A stretch of DNA of 36,401 bases from Pseudonocardia sp. Lineage in GTDB: Bacteria; Actinomycetota; Actinomycetes; Mycobacteriales; Pseudonocardiaceae. A model generated the notes under the pieces. It did not search any database. It was not told where the DNA came from and worked only from the letters and a program-made list of their open reading frames with translations. The stretch covers positions 1 to 36,401 of the forward strand of contig JAQSWF010000006.1 of assembly GCA_029266775.1 (NCBI GenBank), in the 5' to 3' direction. A program made the position numbers and the translations under genes. This document shows positions 28,200 to 36,401 of this stretch, in pieces. Every line of letters starts with the position of its first letter. The first letter of the stretch is position 1.

Positions 28200-30017
28200 T
28201 CAGCCGGGGTAGAGGGGTACGGCATCGGGGACGCCGCCGACGACCTGCCGCCAGCTCTCGAGCTGGCCACCGGCGAAGCTCCAGACGCCACCCTGGTCGG
28301 TGACGAGCACGGGGCGGTTGGGGGCGGCGGCGACCGCTCGCAGCGGCGGGGTGAGGTTGCTGCTGGGCACGAGCTGCCAGCTCAGACCGTCCACCGAGAC
28401 CTGCGACACCGGGCCCTCGTTGCGGCGGCTGACGGCCACGACCGTCTCGGGCGCTTGCCAGTCCGCCGCGACGACCTCGCCCAGATCGCCGGGCCGCAGG
28501 GGGCGGACGGTGCGCACCGCCACGTCGCCGTCCGGCTCGCGCGCCACGGCTCCGGTGTACAGCCCTCCGTTGATCACCGCCGCGACCCGCATCCCGTCCC
28601 GCGAGAGCCGCAGGTCCTGCACCCGGCCGAGCGTCGTGAGCGCTGCGGCGTCGACCTGGCCGAGCCGCGGGTTGCCATCGCCGTCGAGCAGGACGCGGAC
28701 GACATCCTTGGCGTCGCGCACCGTCCAGACCTCGGTGCCCGACGGCGCCCAGGACGGGCGCGTCAAGGAGGTGGCGTCGACCGGGACCGGGACGGCGGGA
28801 CCGTCCGGGGCGCCGAGCAGCAGCCGGCGCCGCGGGCCGTCCCCGGACACGACGGCCACCCGCCGCCCGTCCGGGCTCGACGCCGCCGACTGCACCACGA
28901 GGTCCCCGTTCCCGACCGCACCGGGCAGCGCAGCGTCGATCTGCCCGCCGCTGAGCTCGTGCACCCGCCCCCCGTACACGACCAGCGCCGGAACCATCGC
29001 CGGCGGCGGCTCGGCGACCAGCGCCGCAATGTCGTTACGGGTGATGTCGGTGCGATCCGGCAGGAGCGGTGCGCCGTCGACCAGCACCCGGACGCGCCCG
29101 ACGCTGACCTCCGCCAGCGAGAGCACGACCTGGGCGGCGAGGAGCCGGCGGCCGGTGTCGTCGAGCTCGCCGACCTGGGTCAGGTCGACGATCAACGCCC
29201 CCTCGGGGCTCGTGGCGACGTTCGACCGCAGCTGTGCACCCGCCGGCAGCATGCTCGTCGCCGCGTCCTGCAGCGCGGTGGACGGCCCGGTCAAGAGCAG
29301 CTCCATCGCCCGCGCGGACTGGGCTCGGGTTGGGCTGACGGGGAGGTAGCGCAGGTCCGGGACCGCGACCCGTCGGACGGGGTCGACGAACCAGGTCTTC
29401 ACCGTGCGGTAGTTCGAACGGAGGTCCGACAGGCGCACGAACACGCCGTCGGGCAGGCGCGCGATCCGCCACTGGTTGTCGCGGCGCGCCACCGTGACGT
29501 CGACCTGGACGGGCGCGGGCGCCGCCTCGAACCACCCATCTGCGGTCAGCCGGCCCAGCGCCGTGCCGCGGATGCGCACGGTCCGCGTGTCCGCCTGCGG
29601 GTCGACTGCGCCCGGATAGACGGTGTCGAACTGCTCGTCGAGCACGGTGAGCCCGGCCCCGTCGTTCCAGTCCGTCGCCTCCGGGGCGAGGAAGCGGCGG
29701 GCCGCGCCATGGCGGTCCGTGCTGCTGCCCGACGAGTAGACGAAGCCGCGCACGAGGTCGAGCGCGTTGCTCCCGTCGACGGGACCGGGCGGCAGCACGG
29801 GCGTGTCGCCCTCGCCGACCCGCCGCAGCACCTGCACCGGCGAGCTCTCCGGCACGCTCGCGCAGCCGGCCAGCCCGGCCAGGACGAGCAGCAGGGCCAG
29901 CACTGCGACGCGCCCTCGCCCCCACCAACGCCGCACTTCGGAGCCATAGTGCTGCTGATCGGGCCCTGAAACAGCAGTGTGGCTCCGAAGTGCGGGAGAA
30001 GGGGGGCGACCGATCAT
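28200..30017 (-). CDS. lpqB: Lipoprotein LpqB (MtrAB-associated)
   Basis: ...VRRWWGRGRVAVLALLLVLAGLAGCASVPESSPVQVLRRVGEGD... lipobox LAGC. ATG 30017 overlaps the mtrB stop (ATGA) with upstream GGGGA; alternative start GTG 29936. Confidence 0.93.
   Translation of the reverse strand: MIGRPPSPALRSHTAVSGPDQQHYGSEVRRWWGRGRVAVLALLLVLAGLAGCASVPESSPVQVLRRVGEGDTPVLPPGPVDGSNALDLVRGFVYSSGSSTDRHGAARRFLAPEATDWNDGAGLTVLDEQFDTVYPGAVDPQADTRTVRIRGTALGRLTADGWFEAAPAPVQVDVTVARRDNQWRIARLPDGVFVRLSDLRSNYRTVKTWFVDPVRRVAVPDLRYLPVSPTRAQSARAMELLLTGPSTALQDAATSMLPAGAQLRSNVATSPEGALIVDLTQVGELDDTGRRLLAAQVVLSLAEVSVGRVRVLVDGAPLLPDRTDITRNDIAALVAEPPPAMVPALVVYGGRVHELSGGQIDAALPGAVGNGDLVVQSAASSPDGRRVAVVSGDGPRRRLLLGAPDGPAVPVPVDATSLTRPSWAPSGTEVWTVRDAKDVVRVLLDGDGNPRLGQVDAAALTTLGRVQDLRLSRDGMRVAAVINGGLYTGAVAREPDGDVAVRTVRPLRPGDLGEVVAADWQAPETVVAVSRRNEGPVSQVSVDGLSWQLVPSSNLTPPLRAVAAAPNRPVLVTDQGGVWSFAGGQLESWRQVVGGVPDAVPLYPG
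29933..29993. repeat. Inverted repeat, GCACTTCGGAGCC family, copy 1 (inside the lpqB leader frame)
   Basis: GCACTTCGGAGCCATAGTGCTG...CAGCAGTGTGGCTCCGAAGTGC, 20 of 22 bp paired. Confidence 0.8.
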
Positions 30018-31942
30018 CTGACGTCCCCGGCGGGCGTCGCGCGCGAATGCTCCGCGCCCGATGGCTCCGCGCCCGAATGCTCCGCGCCGGAATGCGTGGC
30101 GTCCGCGTGCGATCCCGCCGGGTGCGATTCCGCCGGGTGCGGGGCGGCCGCGTGCGGGGCGGCCGGGTGCGGGGCGGTCACGGTCGCGCGGATCACGGGC
30201 AGCCCGTGCATCGGCGTCGGCACCGATCCGGCGGCAGGGGCGGAGGTGGACGACGACGGCGCCTCCTCGGAGTCACCGCCGAGGCCCGCACGGCCGGTGG
30301 CCCGGTCGTCGGGCACCAGCGGCAGCGGGCTCGCGCTCAGCCGTTCGCCAATCGTGCGGGGCAAGGTCAGGCGGAAGGCCGAGCCACGCCCCGGCTCCCC
30401 CCACGCCTGCAGCCACCCGCCGTGCAGCCGGGCGTCCTCGATGCTGATCGACAGGCCGAGCCCGCTGCCGCCGCTGCGCCGCGCCCGCGACTCCTCGGCC
30501 CGCCAGAACCGGTTGAACACCAGCGCCGCCTCGCCCGGCCGCAACCCCACCCCGTGGTCACGGACCACGACCGCAACGGCCTGCTCGTCGCCGGCGAGCG
30601 TGACATCGACCGGCCTCCCCTCGCCGTGGTCTATCGCGTTCGCCACGAGGTTGCGCACGATCCGCTCCACCCGCCGCGGGTCGACCTCCGCGTACACCCC
30701 GACTGGCAGGTGCAGCCGCAGCGCCGTGCCCGCGTCGTCGGCGAAGCCGCGGACGGCCTCCACCGCGCGGGTGACGACGCCGTGCATGTCGACGCGGTCC
30801 GCGGTCAGGTCGGCGACACCCGCGTCGAGGCGGCTGATCTCCAGCAGGTCGGCCAGCAGCGCCTCGAACCGGTCCAGCTCGGTCACGAGCAGCTCCGAGC
30901 TGCGCCGCAGCGCGGGCAGCAGCTGGTCCTTGGATGCATGCAGGACGTCCGCCGCCATCCGGACGGTCGTGAGCGGCGTGCGGAGCTCGTGGCTGACGTC
31001 GGAGGTGAAGCGCCTCTGCAGCGCGCCGAACTCCTCGAGCTGGCGGATCTGCGTCTGAATGCTGCTCGCCATCTCGTTGTAGGACTCGGCGAGGCGCGCG
31101 ACCTCGTCGTCGCCCCGAACGGGCATCCGCTCGTCGAGGTGCCCGTCGGCGAACCGTTCCGCGATCTCCGCGGCCTGCCGCACCGGGCGCACGACCTGGC
31201 GGGTGACCAGGCTCGCGATCCCGGCCAACAACACGAGGAGCACGAGGCCGCCGACGATCAGCGTGCTCTGGACGAGCGAGAGGGTGCGCTGCTCGGAGTC
31301 GAGCGGGAACAGCAGGTAGAACTCCAGGTCCCCGCCTGCGGTGCGCACGGGCTGGCCGATGATCAGCGTCGGGATGTCGACGCCCTGGTCGGAGATCGTG
31401 GCGTAGCGGCGCGCCAGCGCCCCCTCGGCGACGTGCCCGCGCAGGTCCGCCGGGACGTCCGCGACGGGCCCGGCAGACACCTCGTCGGCCCCGCGGTCCC
31501 GAGGTCCCGTCGTGAGCACGGCGCGGAACTCCCCCGCCGACGGCGAGCCGGCCGCGTCGGACACGCTGGCGTTCGTCAGCAGGTCCAGTGCGTTGTTCAG
31601 CTCACCCTGCGCGCCCTCCCGATCCGGGTCCACCCCGGCCAGGTCCCGTTCGAGCAGCGCGCGGCCGGCCTCGGCCTGGCCCAGGGCGTCGACCTCCTTG
31701 CCCTGCAGGATCCGCCCGGCGATCTGCGTCTGCAGCACGAGGCCGAGCACGAGGACGACGGCCGTCGAGAGCGCGAGGGTGCTGACGACCACCCGCACCT
31801 GCATCGAGCGTCGCCAGATCGCGGCGACCAGCGTCCCGACCTCGAGGCCGAGGAGGCGCAGCTGTGCGACGGTGCGCCGCACCCGGCGGGCGAGCGGGAG
31901 TCGTTCCCACCGCGTCCGCAGCCGGGCGACCGCGCTCGTCAC
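30014..31942 (-). CDS. mtrB: Two-component sensor histidine kinase MtrB
   Basis: RSMQVRVVVSTLALSTAVVLVLGLVLQTQIAGRILQGKEVDAL...HAMP...FTSDVSHELRTPLTTVRMAADVLHASKDQLLPALRRSSELLVTELDRFEALLADLLEISRLDAG...; next to mtrA and lpqB. Confidence 0.96.
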   Translation of the reverse strand: MTSAVARLRTRWERLPLARRVRRTVAQLRLLGLEVGTLVAAIWRRSMQVRVVVSTLALSTAVVLVLGLVLQTQIAGRILQGKEVDALGQAEAGRALLERDLAGVDPDREGAQGELNNALDLLTNASVSDAAGSPSAGEFRAVLTTGPRDRGADEVSAGPVADVPADLRGHVAEGALARRYATISDQGVDIPTLIIGQPVRTAGGDLEFYLLFPLDSEQRTLSLVQSTLIVGGLVLLVLLAGIASLVTRQVVRPVRQAAEIAERFADGHLDERMPVRGDDEVARLAESYNEMASSIQTQIRQLEEFGALQRRFTSDVSHELRTPLTTVRMAADVLHASKDQLLPALRRSSELLVTELDRFEALLADLLEISRLDAGVADLTADRVDMHGVVTRAVEAVRGFADDAGTALRLHLPVGVYAEVDPRRVERIVRNLVANAIDHGEGRPVDVTLAGDEQAVAVVVRDHGVGLRPGEAALVFNRFWRAEESRARRSGGSGLGLSISIEDARLHGGWLQAWGEPGRGSAFRLTLPRTIGERLSASPLPLVPDDRATGRAGLGGDSEEAPSSSTSAPAAGSVPTPMHGLPVIRATVTAPHPAAPHAAAPHPAESHPAGSHADATHSGAEHSGAEPSGAEHSRATPAGDVR

Positions 31943-32012
31943 GGCAGCGCCGACGCCTGCCCGGCCACAGCCGGCGGGGCCGTGGCCGCGCGCATCGGGC
32001 CGGGGTGACAGG

Positions 32013-32690
32013 TCACGGAGGGCCGGCCTTGTACCCCACGCCGCGGACGGTCAGGACCACCTCCGGGTGCTCCGGGTCGCGCTCGACCTTGGAGCGCAGC
32101 CGCTGGACGTGCACGTTCACCAGACGCGTGTCCGCGGCGTGCCGGTAGCCCCACACCTGCTCGAGCAGCACCTCGCGGGTGAACACCTGTCGCGGCTTGC
32201 GGGCGAGGGCGACGAGCAGGTCGAACTCCAGCGGCGTCAGCGCGATGGGCTCGCTTGCGCGGAGCACCTGGTGGGCGGGCACGTCGATGCTGATGTCGCC
32301 GATGGAGAGCTGCTCGGCCGGCTCGGCCTCCACCCGCCGCACCCTGGCCCGGATGCGGGCGACGAGCTCCTTGGGCTTGAACGGCTTCACGACGTAGTCG
32401 TCGGCGCCGGACTCGAGGCCCAGGACGATGTCGACGGTGTCGCTCTTGGCCGTGAGCATCACGATCGGCACGCCGGACTCGGTGCGGATCGCTCGGCACA
32501 CGTCGATGCCGTTCATGCCGGGGAGCATCAGGTCGAGGAGCACGACGTCCGGGCGCAGGTCGCGCACGGCCGGCAGCGCTCGGGTGCCGTCACCGACCAC
32601 GGCGGTGTCGAAGCCCTCACCCCGCAGCACGATCGTGAGCATCTCGGCCAGGGCCGGGTCGTCGTCAACCACGAGTACGCGCGACTTCAT
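32013..32690 (-). CDS. mtrA: Two-component response regulator MtrA (OmpR family)
   Basis: MKSRVLVVDDDPALAEMLTIVLRGEGFDTAVVGDGTRALPAVRDLRPDVVLLDLMLPGMNGIDVCRAIRTESGVPIVMLTAKSDTVDIVLGLESGADDYVVKPFKPKELVARIRARVRR... Confidence 0.97.
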   Translation of the reverse strand: MKSRVLVVDDDPALAEMLTIVLRGEGFDTAVVGDGTRALPAVRDLRPDVVLLDLMLPGMNGIDVCRAIRTESGVPIVMLTAKSDTVDIVLGLESGADDYVVKPFKPKELVARIRARVRRVEAEPAEQLSIGDISIDVPAHQVLRASEPIALTPLEFDLLVALARKPRQVFTREVLLEQVWGYRHAADTRLVNVHVQRLRSKVERDPEHPEVVLTVRGVGYKAGPP

Positions 32691-32742
32691 GGACGTCAAT
32701 ATCCCACCTCGCTCCATCGGTGTTCGAAAGCCCCTGATTGCA

Positions 32743-33384
32743 CTACTGCAGCAGCCCTTCGGCGAGGGCCTCCGCGTCGACGGCGCCCGCCCCGTCCACG
32801 ACCGTCCACGGCGACAGCCAGCCGGCTGCCGCCAGGCCGCGGTAGACCGCGCCCGTGCGGTCCTGCAGGCCCGCGTCGACCTCGTAACGGTCGCGTGGGC
32901 GGCCGGGCTCGCTGCGCGCGCGGAAGGCCGCCCGCTCGGCGGCGACGGCCTGCGGCACATCGAGCAGCAGCTGGCGGGCGGGGACGGGCACGGCGAACCG
33001 ATCGACCTCCAGGGCCGCCACCCATGCCACGAACTCCCCGCCGGCGTCCTGGTGCAGGCGCGCCGCGCCATAGGCGGCGTTGGACGCCACGTAGCGGTCG
33101 ACCACGACGACGTCGTGCGCGGCCACCGCGGCACGGAGACCCTCTGCGGCGTCCCGGCGGTCGAGGGCGAACAGCACCGCCATCCCGTGCACGGAGTCGG
33201 GAAGGTCGCCGAGGCGCCCGTGCAGCGCGTCGCGCGCCAGCTGGGCGTGCACGTCCGCGTCGTAGCGGGGGAAGGCGACGGTGGTGGTGCGCGCACCGCG
33301 GGCGGTCAGGCCGGCGAGGAGGCGGTCGGTGAGCGTGTGCTTCCCGGCTCCGTCCAGGCCCTCGAGGACCACCAGTCGTCCCAC
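32743..33384 (-). CDS. tmk: Thymidylate kinase
   Basis: VGRLVVLEGLDGAGKHTLTDRLLAGLTARGARTTTVAFPRYDADVHAQLARDALHGRLGD...VVVDRYVASNAAYGAARL; P-loop and DRY motifs. Confidence 0.9.
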   Translation of the reverse strand: MGRLVVLEGLDGAGKHTLTDRLLAGLTARGARTTTVAFPRYDADVHAQLARDALHGRLGDLPDSVHGMAVLFALDRRDAAEGLRAAVAAHDVVVVDRYVASNAAYGAARLHQDAGGEFVAWVAALEVDRFAVPVPARQLLLDVPQAVAAERAAFRARSEPGRPRDRYEVDAGLQDRTGAVYRGLAAAGWLSPWTVVDGAGAVDAEALAEGLLQ

Positions 33385-33418
33385 GGCGGCGCACCCTAAC
33401 CGCCCATATGAAGCCAGA

Positions 33419-33453
33419 GTGGCTTCGGGTGCACTCAGCGCACCGAAAGCCAC
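33419..33453. repeat. Inverted repeat, GAAAGCCAC family, between tmk and Nudix genes
   Basis: GTGGCTTCGGGTGC / GCACCGAAAGCCAC (12 of 14 paired), continuing to ATTCGCTGC. Confidence 0.65.
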
Positions 33454-33475
33454 ATTCGCTGCATCCGGACCGGGG

Positions 33476-33925
33476 TCAGCCGATCTCCTGCACCGCCTCC
33501 CAGGTCGCGGCGAACCCGGGGTGCAGGGGCAGCTCCGGCACCGCGTCCACGACCACCCAGCGCAGGTCGATCGTCTCCGGGGTCAGCGCGCTCGGCACGA
33601 AGGCGCTGGGCGCGCGGCCGACGACGGTGGTGTACGACCAGCCGCCGTGGTCGTCGACGAACTCCCCGACCACCGCGTAGCTGTCCGGCACGACGCCCGC
33701 CTCCTCGGCGGCCTCCCGCTGGGCGGCGTACGCAGCCGTCTCGCCGCTGTTGCGGGCCCCGCCGAGGACGCCCCACGTGCCGCCGTGGTGACTCCACAGC
33801 GCGCGGTGCTGCAGCAGCACCCGCTCGACCCCGGTGGCGTCGGCGTGGCGCAGCAGCAGGCCCGCCGCGCCGAAGATTCCCCAGTGCCGGGCCGAGGGCG
33901 CAGCGGGTCCAGCCGTCGCCGTCAC
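33476..33925 (-). CDS. Nudix hydrolase
   Basis: VTATAGPAAPSARHWGIFGAAGLLLRHADATGVERVLLQHRALWSHHGGTWGVLGGARNSGETAAYAAQREAAEEAGVVPDSY; Nudix box GG-x5-E...REAAEEAG. Confidence 0.9.
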   Translation of the reverse strand: MTATAGPAAPSARHWGIFGAAGLLLRHADATGVERVLLQHRALWSHHGGTWGVLGGARNSGETAAYAAQREAAEEAGVVPDSYAVVGEFVDDHGGWSYTTVVGRAPSAFVPSALTPETIDLRWVVVDAVPELPLHPGFAATWEAVQEIG

Positions 33926-33958
33926 CGAGAGGCAGCACACTCCCAGCCTAGGCAGCTT

Positions 33959-34019
33959 GCACTTCGGAGCCGTACTGCTGTCGGCGGCCGGCGACACGAG
34001 CACTTCGGCTCCGACTTGC
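33959..34019. repeat. Inverted repeat, GCACTTCGGAGCC family, copy 2
   Basis: GCACTTCGGAGCCGTACTGCTG ... CGGCTCCGACTTGC between Nudix and ahcY; 5' arm nearly identical to copy 1. Confidence 0.7.
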
Positions 34020-34034
34020 GACGTGACACCCGGG

Positions 34035-35552
<1,518 letters not shown>

Positions 35553-35680
35553 CGGGTCAAGCCTCCAGCGCGGGCGCGTCGGCCCGTCGGTCGGTGTGCG
35601 GGTGCAGCGGGAACGCCCGCTCGCGGCCGGACCGATCTGGGTGTCGCACGGGATGGGGCACGACTCCTCCGAACGGTCCG

Positions 35681-35751
35681 GAGGCGCCCTTGTGCTCGAA
35701 CAGCCGCAGGCCGAGCGTGGCGGACGTGGTCCGCTGCAGCGCCTCTCGACC
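35681..35751 (-). ncRNA. SAH-riboswitch-like element in the ahcY 5' leader
   Basis: Minus strand GGTCGAG-AGGCGC-TGCA-GCGGAC-cac-GTCCGC-CACG-CTCGGCC-...ACAAG-GGCGCCT: P1 GGTCGAG/CTCGGCC, P2 hairpin GCGGAC/GTCCGC, pseudoknot AGGCGC/GCGCCT, conserved GCGCTGCA core. Confidence 0.75.
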
Positions 35752-35830
35752 CGGGCAGGTGGTTCAGCTCCAGGATGCCAGCACGGAGCCACATCGGGAA
35801 ACCGGGTCAGCCGTTCACTGATGACACCCG

Positions 35831-36401
35831 TCAGCCCAGCAGGTGTTCGTGCAGCAGCGTCGTCGCCGAGGCCGTGTGCCCGGCCGCCGCGAGAAGCCCG
35901 GCCGGGGTGACGGCGAAGTCGGTGTCGAGCGCGACCCGGGCCGTCGCGAGCAGCGGCGCGAGCACCGCGTCGGCCCGGAGCGTCGCGACGACGGCGCCCA
36001 GCCCGCTCGCGTCCGGCCGACGGAAGACGCCGCCGGTCAGCACCAGGAGTTCGACGTCCGCGGGCTTGCCGGGCACCACCGCCGCGCGATGCCGGCGCAG
36101 GGCGAGCACGGCGGCCAATGCGGCGATCCGCCGGTCTTCCGCCGCGCTGCCGGCGTTCCGAGGCACGTAGGCGACCTCGCTGGTCATCCGGCGAACGGTC
36201 GGACCGAGCAGATCGGCCTCGACCGGGTCGACGACGCCCTCCGCCTGGCCCTCGACGAGAACGCCCGCGGCCGCCGACCGCATGCCCAGGTCACCCTCGA
36301 CCGTCCGGCTCGGGCCGGCCGTCGGCTCGGGACAGGCCCCGTGCACGTCCGTGGTGGCGCAGCCGATGTCGACGACCAGCACGCGCACCCCGAGCGCCCG
36401 G
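35831..36401 (-). CDS. Glutamate mutase L (GlmL/MutL)-like protein, C-terminal part (runs off the right edge)
   Basis: [51 protein letters not shown]...[19 protein letters not shown]...; ASKHA-type DIGxATTDV and [10 protein letters not shown] motifs. Confidence 0.75.

Follow-up and report, generated by a model that had tools for sequence, protein, structure and literature searches.

Is the leader of ahcY, the gene for S-adenosylhomocysteine (SAH) hydrolase, an SAH riboswitch in this Pseudonocardia sp., and if so, by which route would it act on the gene? Pseudonocardia is a soil actinobacterium, and the hydrolase destroys SAH, a toxic leftover of methylation reactions. The window that we analyzed (the whole stretch of 36,401 nucleotides) carries ahcY on its minus strand. 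The preliminary description of this DNA reported an SAH-riboswitch-like layout in the leader, at 35681-35751, and the sequence that it quoted is present there on the minus strand. It also suggested a search with the Rfam SAH model. We searched a 401-base segment against all 4227 Rfam families using an E-value threshold, and RF01057 (the Rfam SAH riboswitch) was the sole sensible match, covering model positions 1-78 of 78 with 31.9 bits (E = 2.8e-4 for that search scope). The match exists, though it lies below the RF01057 gathering cut-off of 37 bits, a sub-threshold score that the description had omitted; at gathering thresholds, Rfam gave zero matches in the window. This cut-off is a matter of detection, not of structure, and sister species carry elements at this locus that exceed it (42.8 bits in L178, 39 in L166 and 38.4 in L016). 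Across the whole 3.4 Mb draft genome, RF01057 yielded a single match, in the ahcY leader (E = 5.7e-4); the best candidate for a second SAH switch in this assembly, which is 88.5% complete, reached 21.3 bits (E = 0.2).

We then used a covariance model, R1, made from 44 related actinobacterial elements across the order, with the window left out of training. R1 scored the window copy at 70.3 bits (E = 1.4e-13) and united it with the three sister-species elements. As a control across phyla, R1 detected the ahcY leader of Burkholderia glumae (36.3 bits; E = 3.8e-7) despite its actinobacteria-only training, and Rfam assigns this leader to the SAH class with 55.2 bits. Plain thermodynamic folding energy of the window leader was unremarkable (z = -0.43), a measure that is uninformative for a pseudoknot. 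With the leader as query, a search for remote DNA similarity among plasmids returned chance matches only. The 23 kb record of the B. glumae plasmid pBGF2 (L254, 955-1120) places ahcY and an SAH riboswitch beside the flagellar genes fliA and flhG, a chromosome-like segment on a plasmid. The features of the locus are collected in Table 1.

Table 1. Features of the ahcY locus, in window coordinates
Feature	Position	Strand	Basis or remark
ahcY, S-adenosylhomocysteine hydrolase	34035..35552	-	Pfam PF05221 (E = 8.5e-144) and PF00670
34-codon uORF, GUG start, UGA stop	35557..35661	-	frame ends 4 nt ahead of the ahcY AUG (35552)
Predicted OFF hairpin	35662..35688	-	pseudoknot 3' strand with Shine-Dalgarno GGAGGAG (35670-35664); RNAfold -16.1 kcal/mol, 4 pairs
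SAH riboswitch aptamer (P1, P2, pseudoknot), predicted	35675..35753	-	RF01057 and R1
Pseudoknot 3' strand GCGCCU	35682..35687	-	within the anti-Shine-Dalgarno strand GCCUCC
P1 3' strand CUCGGCC	35709..35715	-	sequence and RF01057 alignment
P2 hairpin GCGGAC-CAC-GUCCGC	35720..35734	-	RF01057 alignment, covariation; GCGGAC 35734-35729 with GUCCGC 35725-35720
Pseudoknot 5' strand AGGCGC	35739..35744	-	pairs with 35682-35687
P1 5' strand GGUCGAG	35745..35751	-	pairs with CUCGGCC 35709-35715; outer pairs covary
Promoter-like element TTTCCC (35801-35796), 18-nt spacer, CATCCT (35777-35772)	35772..35801	-	position as in relatives

The three helices named in the description can all be drawn: P1 with 7 bp (one of them U-G), P2 with 6 bp and the pseudoknot with 6 bp. 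The description was also correct that GA-to-AG on the 5' side of the pseudoknot is matched by a compensating change on the 3' side, which amounts to two complete pair exchanges (GAGCGC/GCGCUC in Rfam, AGGCGC/GCGCCU here); relatives present the further variants AAGCGC/GCGCUU, AGGCGU/ACGCCU and GGGCGC/GCGCCC. In the order-wide alignment of 44 elements, standard pairs occupied 94.6% of the pair cells versus 87.5% when shuffled and at most 41% when slid. Changes on both sides of a pair were observed at four pairs of P1, four of P2 and two of the pseudoknot, so that compensatory changes, which the description had proposed to look for in relatives, were found in each helix. Within Pseudonocardia, 95.0% of the pair cells were standard and the pseudoknot was 100% paired in every sequence covering it (99.6% of pseudoknot cells order-wide). 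Because the R1 structure did not include the pseudoknot, which was added by hand, these pairing counts were not forced by the model. The conserved core is kept (GCGCUGCA, CCA.GCUCG and GGCGC), and departures are confined to the compensated positions and an A to G after GCA. A second actinobacterial departure from the Rfam consensus combines two changes, CCACG for CCAGG and AAGGG for AACGG, and looks like a probable G-C to C-G exchange joining the P2/P1 junction to the base preceding the pseudoknot strand; the ahcY leaders of B. glumae and Acinetobacter present the G...C form at these positions. Two outcomes that the description had named as refuting, a missing significant covariance-model hit and missing compensatory changes in relatives, did not occur. 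Covariance models, covariation in relatives and gene context together indicate that the window element is almost certainly an aptamer of the SAH riboswitch class, and its ligand is very probably SAH.

We further analyzed the distribution of the element. RF01057 matched at E <= 1e-3 in 66 of 399 genomes of the order (25 above the cut-off) and in none of 14 control genomes. Set against one another, the 82 matches had, with a single exception, GAGAGGCGCUGCrACGG ... CCGCCACGCUCG ... AAGGGCGCCUCC in common, with small variations. One match of the order search (L152) was judged false by eye, as the putative pseudoknot strands and the signature were absent, and a match of 33 bits in a different actinobacterial lineage (L241) was doubtful and left out. 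Among 61 sources (the window plus 60 Pseudonocardia ahcY loci), R1 matched 50, and a genome-wide search found the element in 48 of the 60 sampled Pseudonocardia genomes. The Rfam cut-off was passed by 4 of the 20 tested Pseudonocardia loci, all R1-matching (L016 belongs to the training set). Among the named loci, the element also precedes ahcY in Herbihabitans, Actinoplanes palleronii, Jidongwangia, Dactylosporangium and Actinomycetospora. A survey of the class gave matches in 74 of 395 genomes, including a large genus with genomes of 4-7 Mb from another family of the order, in which the examined copies precede metH; this is consistent with the SAH riboswitches reported in Mycobacteriaceae in 2013 (PMC3766115). 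Beyond the class, the element hardly occurs. The description was right that these riboswitches are best known from Proteobacteria, but members from Mycobacteriaceae had already been published.

The main targets of the element in relatives are ahcY and metH (S-methyl_trans domain), and Pfam domains revealed several other genes behind it. In L119 and L128, metK follows directly and is itself followed by ahcY. An adenosine deaminase stands behind the element in L130 (similarly in L004 and L138); as a target this enzyme makes sense, since it would clear the adenosine released by AhcY. A MOSC-domain protein occupies this position in L120 (similarly in L002 and L005). The gene directly behind the element in L161 (the same place as L237) encodes a class I SAM-dependent methyltransferase; there, SAH would raise an SAH-producing enzyme.

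The region downstream of the aptamer was overlooked in the description, and this platform with its uORF is the more informative part of the locus. Whatever the lineage, the 3' strand of the pseudoknot continues as a pyrimidine run (GCGCCUCC) that is complementary to downstream purines, and three arrangements of these purines were observed. Before metH and other genes, they are the gene's own Shine-Dalgarno, as in GGGCGCCUCC...GGGAGG...start, and where the strand reads GGACGCCUUCC its partner is GGAAGG. Many ahcY leaders outside Pseudonocardia instead build an intrinsic terminator on the same strand, with a GGCGCC-hairpin ahead of a U-run. The ahcY leaders of Pseudonocardia have no U-run, and the purines form a Shine-Dalgarno that usually stands ahead of a short reading frame starting with AUG or GUG; in the metH leaders of this genus, the masked Shine-Dalgarno directly precedes metH. 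RNAfold was applied to 62 leaders of Pseudonocardia (51 of ahcY and 11 of metH); in 56 of them, the window included, it joined the pseudoknot strand to the Shine-Dalgarno by at least three pairs. We suggest from these modeled pairings, for the first time here, that the 3' pseudoknot strand doubles as an anti-Shine-Dalgarno. Since the masking before metH and the terminators elsewhere use the same strand, this strand appears to be a shared switching element. The pseudoknot and the masking hairpin share bases and are mutually exclusive, so ligand binding should unmask the ribosome-binding site, and the predicted direction of control is that of an ON switch. The published SAH riboswitch class is likewise an ON switch, according to the literature cited in PMC7057144.

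The masked Shine-Dalgarno of the window belongs to a short uORF. A recognizable uORF was present in 40 of the 51 aptamer-bearing Pseudonocardia ahcY leaders and absent from 11, counts for which the ahcY starts of L208 and L212 were set by hand. These uORFs range from 7 to 70 codons and are unrelated in sequence beyond close relatives. Their GC-content at the three codon positions (0.72/0.73/0.76 versus 0.68/0.41/0.96 in ahcY) presents no coding signature. We considered the uORF as a conserved small protein and ruled this out, given that neither a codon-position signal nor a conserved peptide was found. Without codon-position signal the peptide is probably irrelevant, and only the frame can be under selection. 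The stops cluster at the ahcY start, most often as an AUGA overlap. Relative to a null that resamples the leader by a first-order Markov model, draws the frame at random and, as an approximation, treats 21 sequence clusters as independent, 16.1 stops versus 7.1 expected fell within -25..+4 of the ahcY start (about 1e-5), and 11.3 versus 4.75 formed the exact AUGA overlap (5e-4). Other start codons of the same leaders ended at the ahcY start less often, in 16-24% of cases, where the set of other starts omits the uORF frame and is biased low and the aptamer-region set is unbiased. There are exceptions: in a few leaders the Shine-Dalgarno stands straight before ahcY (L194), the uORF of L180 is in frame with ahcY, and several uORFs of the genus stop 40-110 nt too early. 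The window itself has no AUGA overlap and shows a 4-nt gap instead, and ahcY carries its own Shine-Dalgarno (GGAGG at 35566-35562, 9-nt spacing), which together imply that strict coupling is not obligatory.

Upstream of the aptamer, most Pseudonocardia relatives present TTGACA, a spacer of about 17 nt and nAnnnT just before P1. In the window, the -10 of this promoter-like element is preserved as CATCCT, whereas the -35 is weaker, and the sigma-70 scan found nothing. Transcription probably starts a few bases upstream of P1, which would make the aptamer the 5' end of the message. The next gene upstream (35831-36400, minus strand) encodes a MutL-family PF13941 protein and is cut by the contig end; a MutL-family gene, read from the sequence, also lies upstream of ahcY in L016. 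Downstream on the same strand (28200-34003) follow genes for a NUDIX protein, a thymidylate kinase, a response regulator, a histidine kinase and a lipoprotein, with gaps of about 31 nt after ahcY and about 22 nt after the NUDIX gene. From gene order, we take the last three to be an MtrA-type regulator, an MtrB-type kinase and an LpqB-like lipoprotein. An SAH switch heading an ahcY-NUDIX-tmk-mtrA-mtrB cluster might touch the MtrAB system.

Our computations show the fold of a conserved aptamer, two pairings that exclude each other and a uORF whose end is not random, and we propose the following mechanism. At low SAH, the 3' side of the pseudoknot would pair with GGAGGAG and leave the 34-codon uORF untranslated; ahcY would then be poorly expressed because coupled translation is lost, because the leader is exposed to Rho, or both. 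The ligand SAH, the ON direction and a last step through coupling or Rho are inferred. With SAH bound, GCGCCU would be drawn into the pseudoknot and GGAGGAG freed, the uORF would be translated, and ribosomes stopping 4 nt upstream of the ahcY AUG would re-initiate and turn ahcY on. The locus is, in our judgment, best explained by an actinobacterial subtype of SAH-class riboswitch, switching ahcY on as SAH accumulates, and we regard this as likely. That its platform is coupled to the uORF is a reading we favor with moderate confidence. More tentatively, the uORFs of Pseudonocardia could be sequence-independent relays in which selection acts on the positions of start and stop only, with SAH switching ahcY, and perhaps tmk-mtrA-mtrB, by termination and re-initiation and switching metH directly.

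Several alternatives have to be weighed against this proposal. The uORF might be incidental to an SAH riboswitch, the freed GGAGGAG merely opening the leader and ahcY responding through Rho-dependent termination or its own Shine-Dalgarno. The GGAGG that ahcY has at 9-nt spacing fits this alternative, as do the unconserved peptides without codon bias, the 11 of 51 leaders lacking a uORF and the many chance open frames of high-GC DNA; however, the uORFs stop at the ahcY start about twice as often as expected, and the metH leaders start a gene from the same Shine-Dalgarno. We consider an incidental uORF rather unlikely. A platform ending in an intrinsic terminator, as in many ahcY leaders of other genera, is much less probable: the same strand builds a GGCGCC-hairpin and U-run before ahcY in L007, L009, L028, L146 and L150, but the OFF hairpin of the window is followed by no U-run and a scan of the minus strand found no terminator.

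The remaining alternatives concern the aptamer itself. The actinobacterial form departs in fixed ways from what is consensus in Proteobacteria (pseudoknot GA to AG; CCACG for CCAGG with AAGGG for AACGG), and adenosine deaminase, MOSC and methyltransferase genes occur among the targets; both could suggest that specificity has shifted to SAM or another adenosyl compound. These departures nevertheless seem to compensate each other (GC to AU, AU to GC and, probably, G-C to C-G), the core is otherwise intact, and ahcY and metH, which are the known SAH regulon, are the main targets, which leaves another ligand very improbable. A chance resemblance or decayed remnant would agree with the score below the Rfam cut-off and the non-significant plain folding, but it has to face the match to an independent model at E = 1.4e-13, the occurrence in most sampled Pseudonocardia genomes and three intact helices. 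Of this pair, decay has hardly any probability, and chance resemblance is already refuted by the R1 score, the conservation and the intact helices.

Neither the riboswitch class nor its presence in the phylum is new, but the Pseudonocardia platform, which joins aptamer, masked Shine-Dalgarno, relay uORF and ahcY, appears to be a new variant. In a literature search that covered a minority of subscription papers, we found none that links SAH riboswitches to a uORF or to Pseudonocardia. Our results indicate that RNA-based SAH sensing is widespread among Pseudonocardiaceae and related actinobacteria and mostly escapes the current Rfam threshold. They also provide candidate additions to the SAH regulon: the metK-ahcY pair, adenosine deaminase, the methyltransferase and the MOSC protein. 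The genus further offers a natural comparison in which the same aptamer would drive metH directly and ahcY through a relay uORF, and why actinobacterial riboswitches use uORFs becomes a testable question.

Finally, we compared the locus to known systems. The element resembles RF01057 in the layout of P1, P2 and pseudoknot, in the core GCGCUGC...CCA.GCUCG...GGCGC and in its place before ahcY; it differs by the pseudoknot AGGCGC/GCGCCU, by CCACG...AAGGG and by its sub-cut-off score. The metK-ahcY pair found under the element in two relatives is a further difference, as metK was not controlled by SAH riboswitches in the 2014 survey of Proteobacteria (PMC4239095). The SAM/SAH riboswitch RF01727, located before metK in Rhodobacterales (PMC2864571), binds SAH, the predicted ligand here, forms a pseudoknot and shares the metabolic context, but its fold is another, smaller one, and the 4227-family search gave no match to it in the window leader. 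Parallels for the platform come from Mycobacterium tuberculosis. There, the Mg2+ Mbox controls a uORF before pe20 (PMC12810186), also an actinobacterial translational platform acting on a uORF and Rho-coupled in that case; its uORF is a conserved small protein, whereas the uORF peptides of Pseudonocardia are unconserved. The M. tuberculosis gene ppe2 has a B12 riboswitch leader, and experiments established that PPE2 expression needs a uORF with an AUGA overlap (PMC11260477), a dependence that for the ahcY uORF is suggested by sequence comparison alone. Aptamer and ligand are different, control is OFF there and predicted to be ON for ahcY, and ppe2 lacks the Shine-Dalgarno of its own that ahcY has, with an AUGA overlap where the window presents a 4-nt gap. 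Both systems nevertheless combine a riboswitch leader with a short uORF that ends at or close to the start of the regulated gene.
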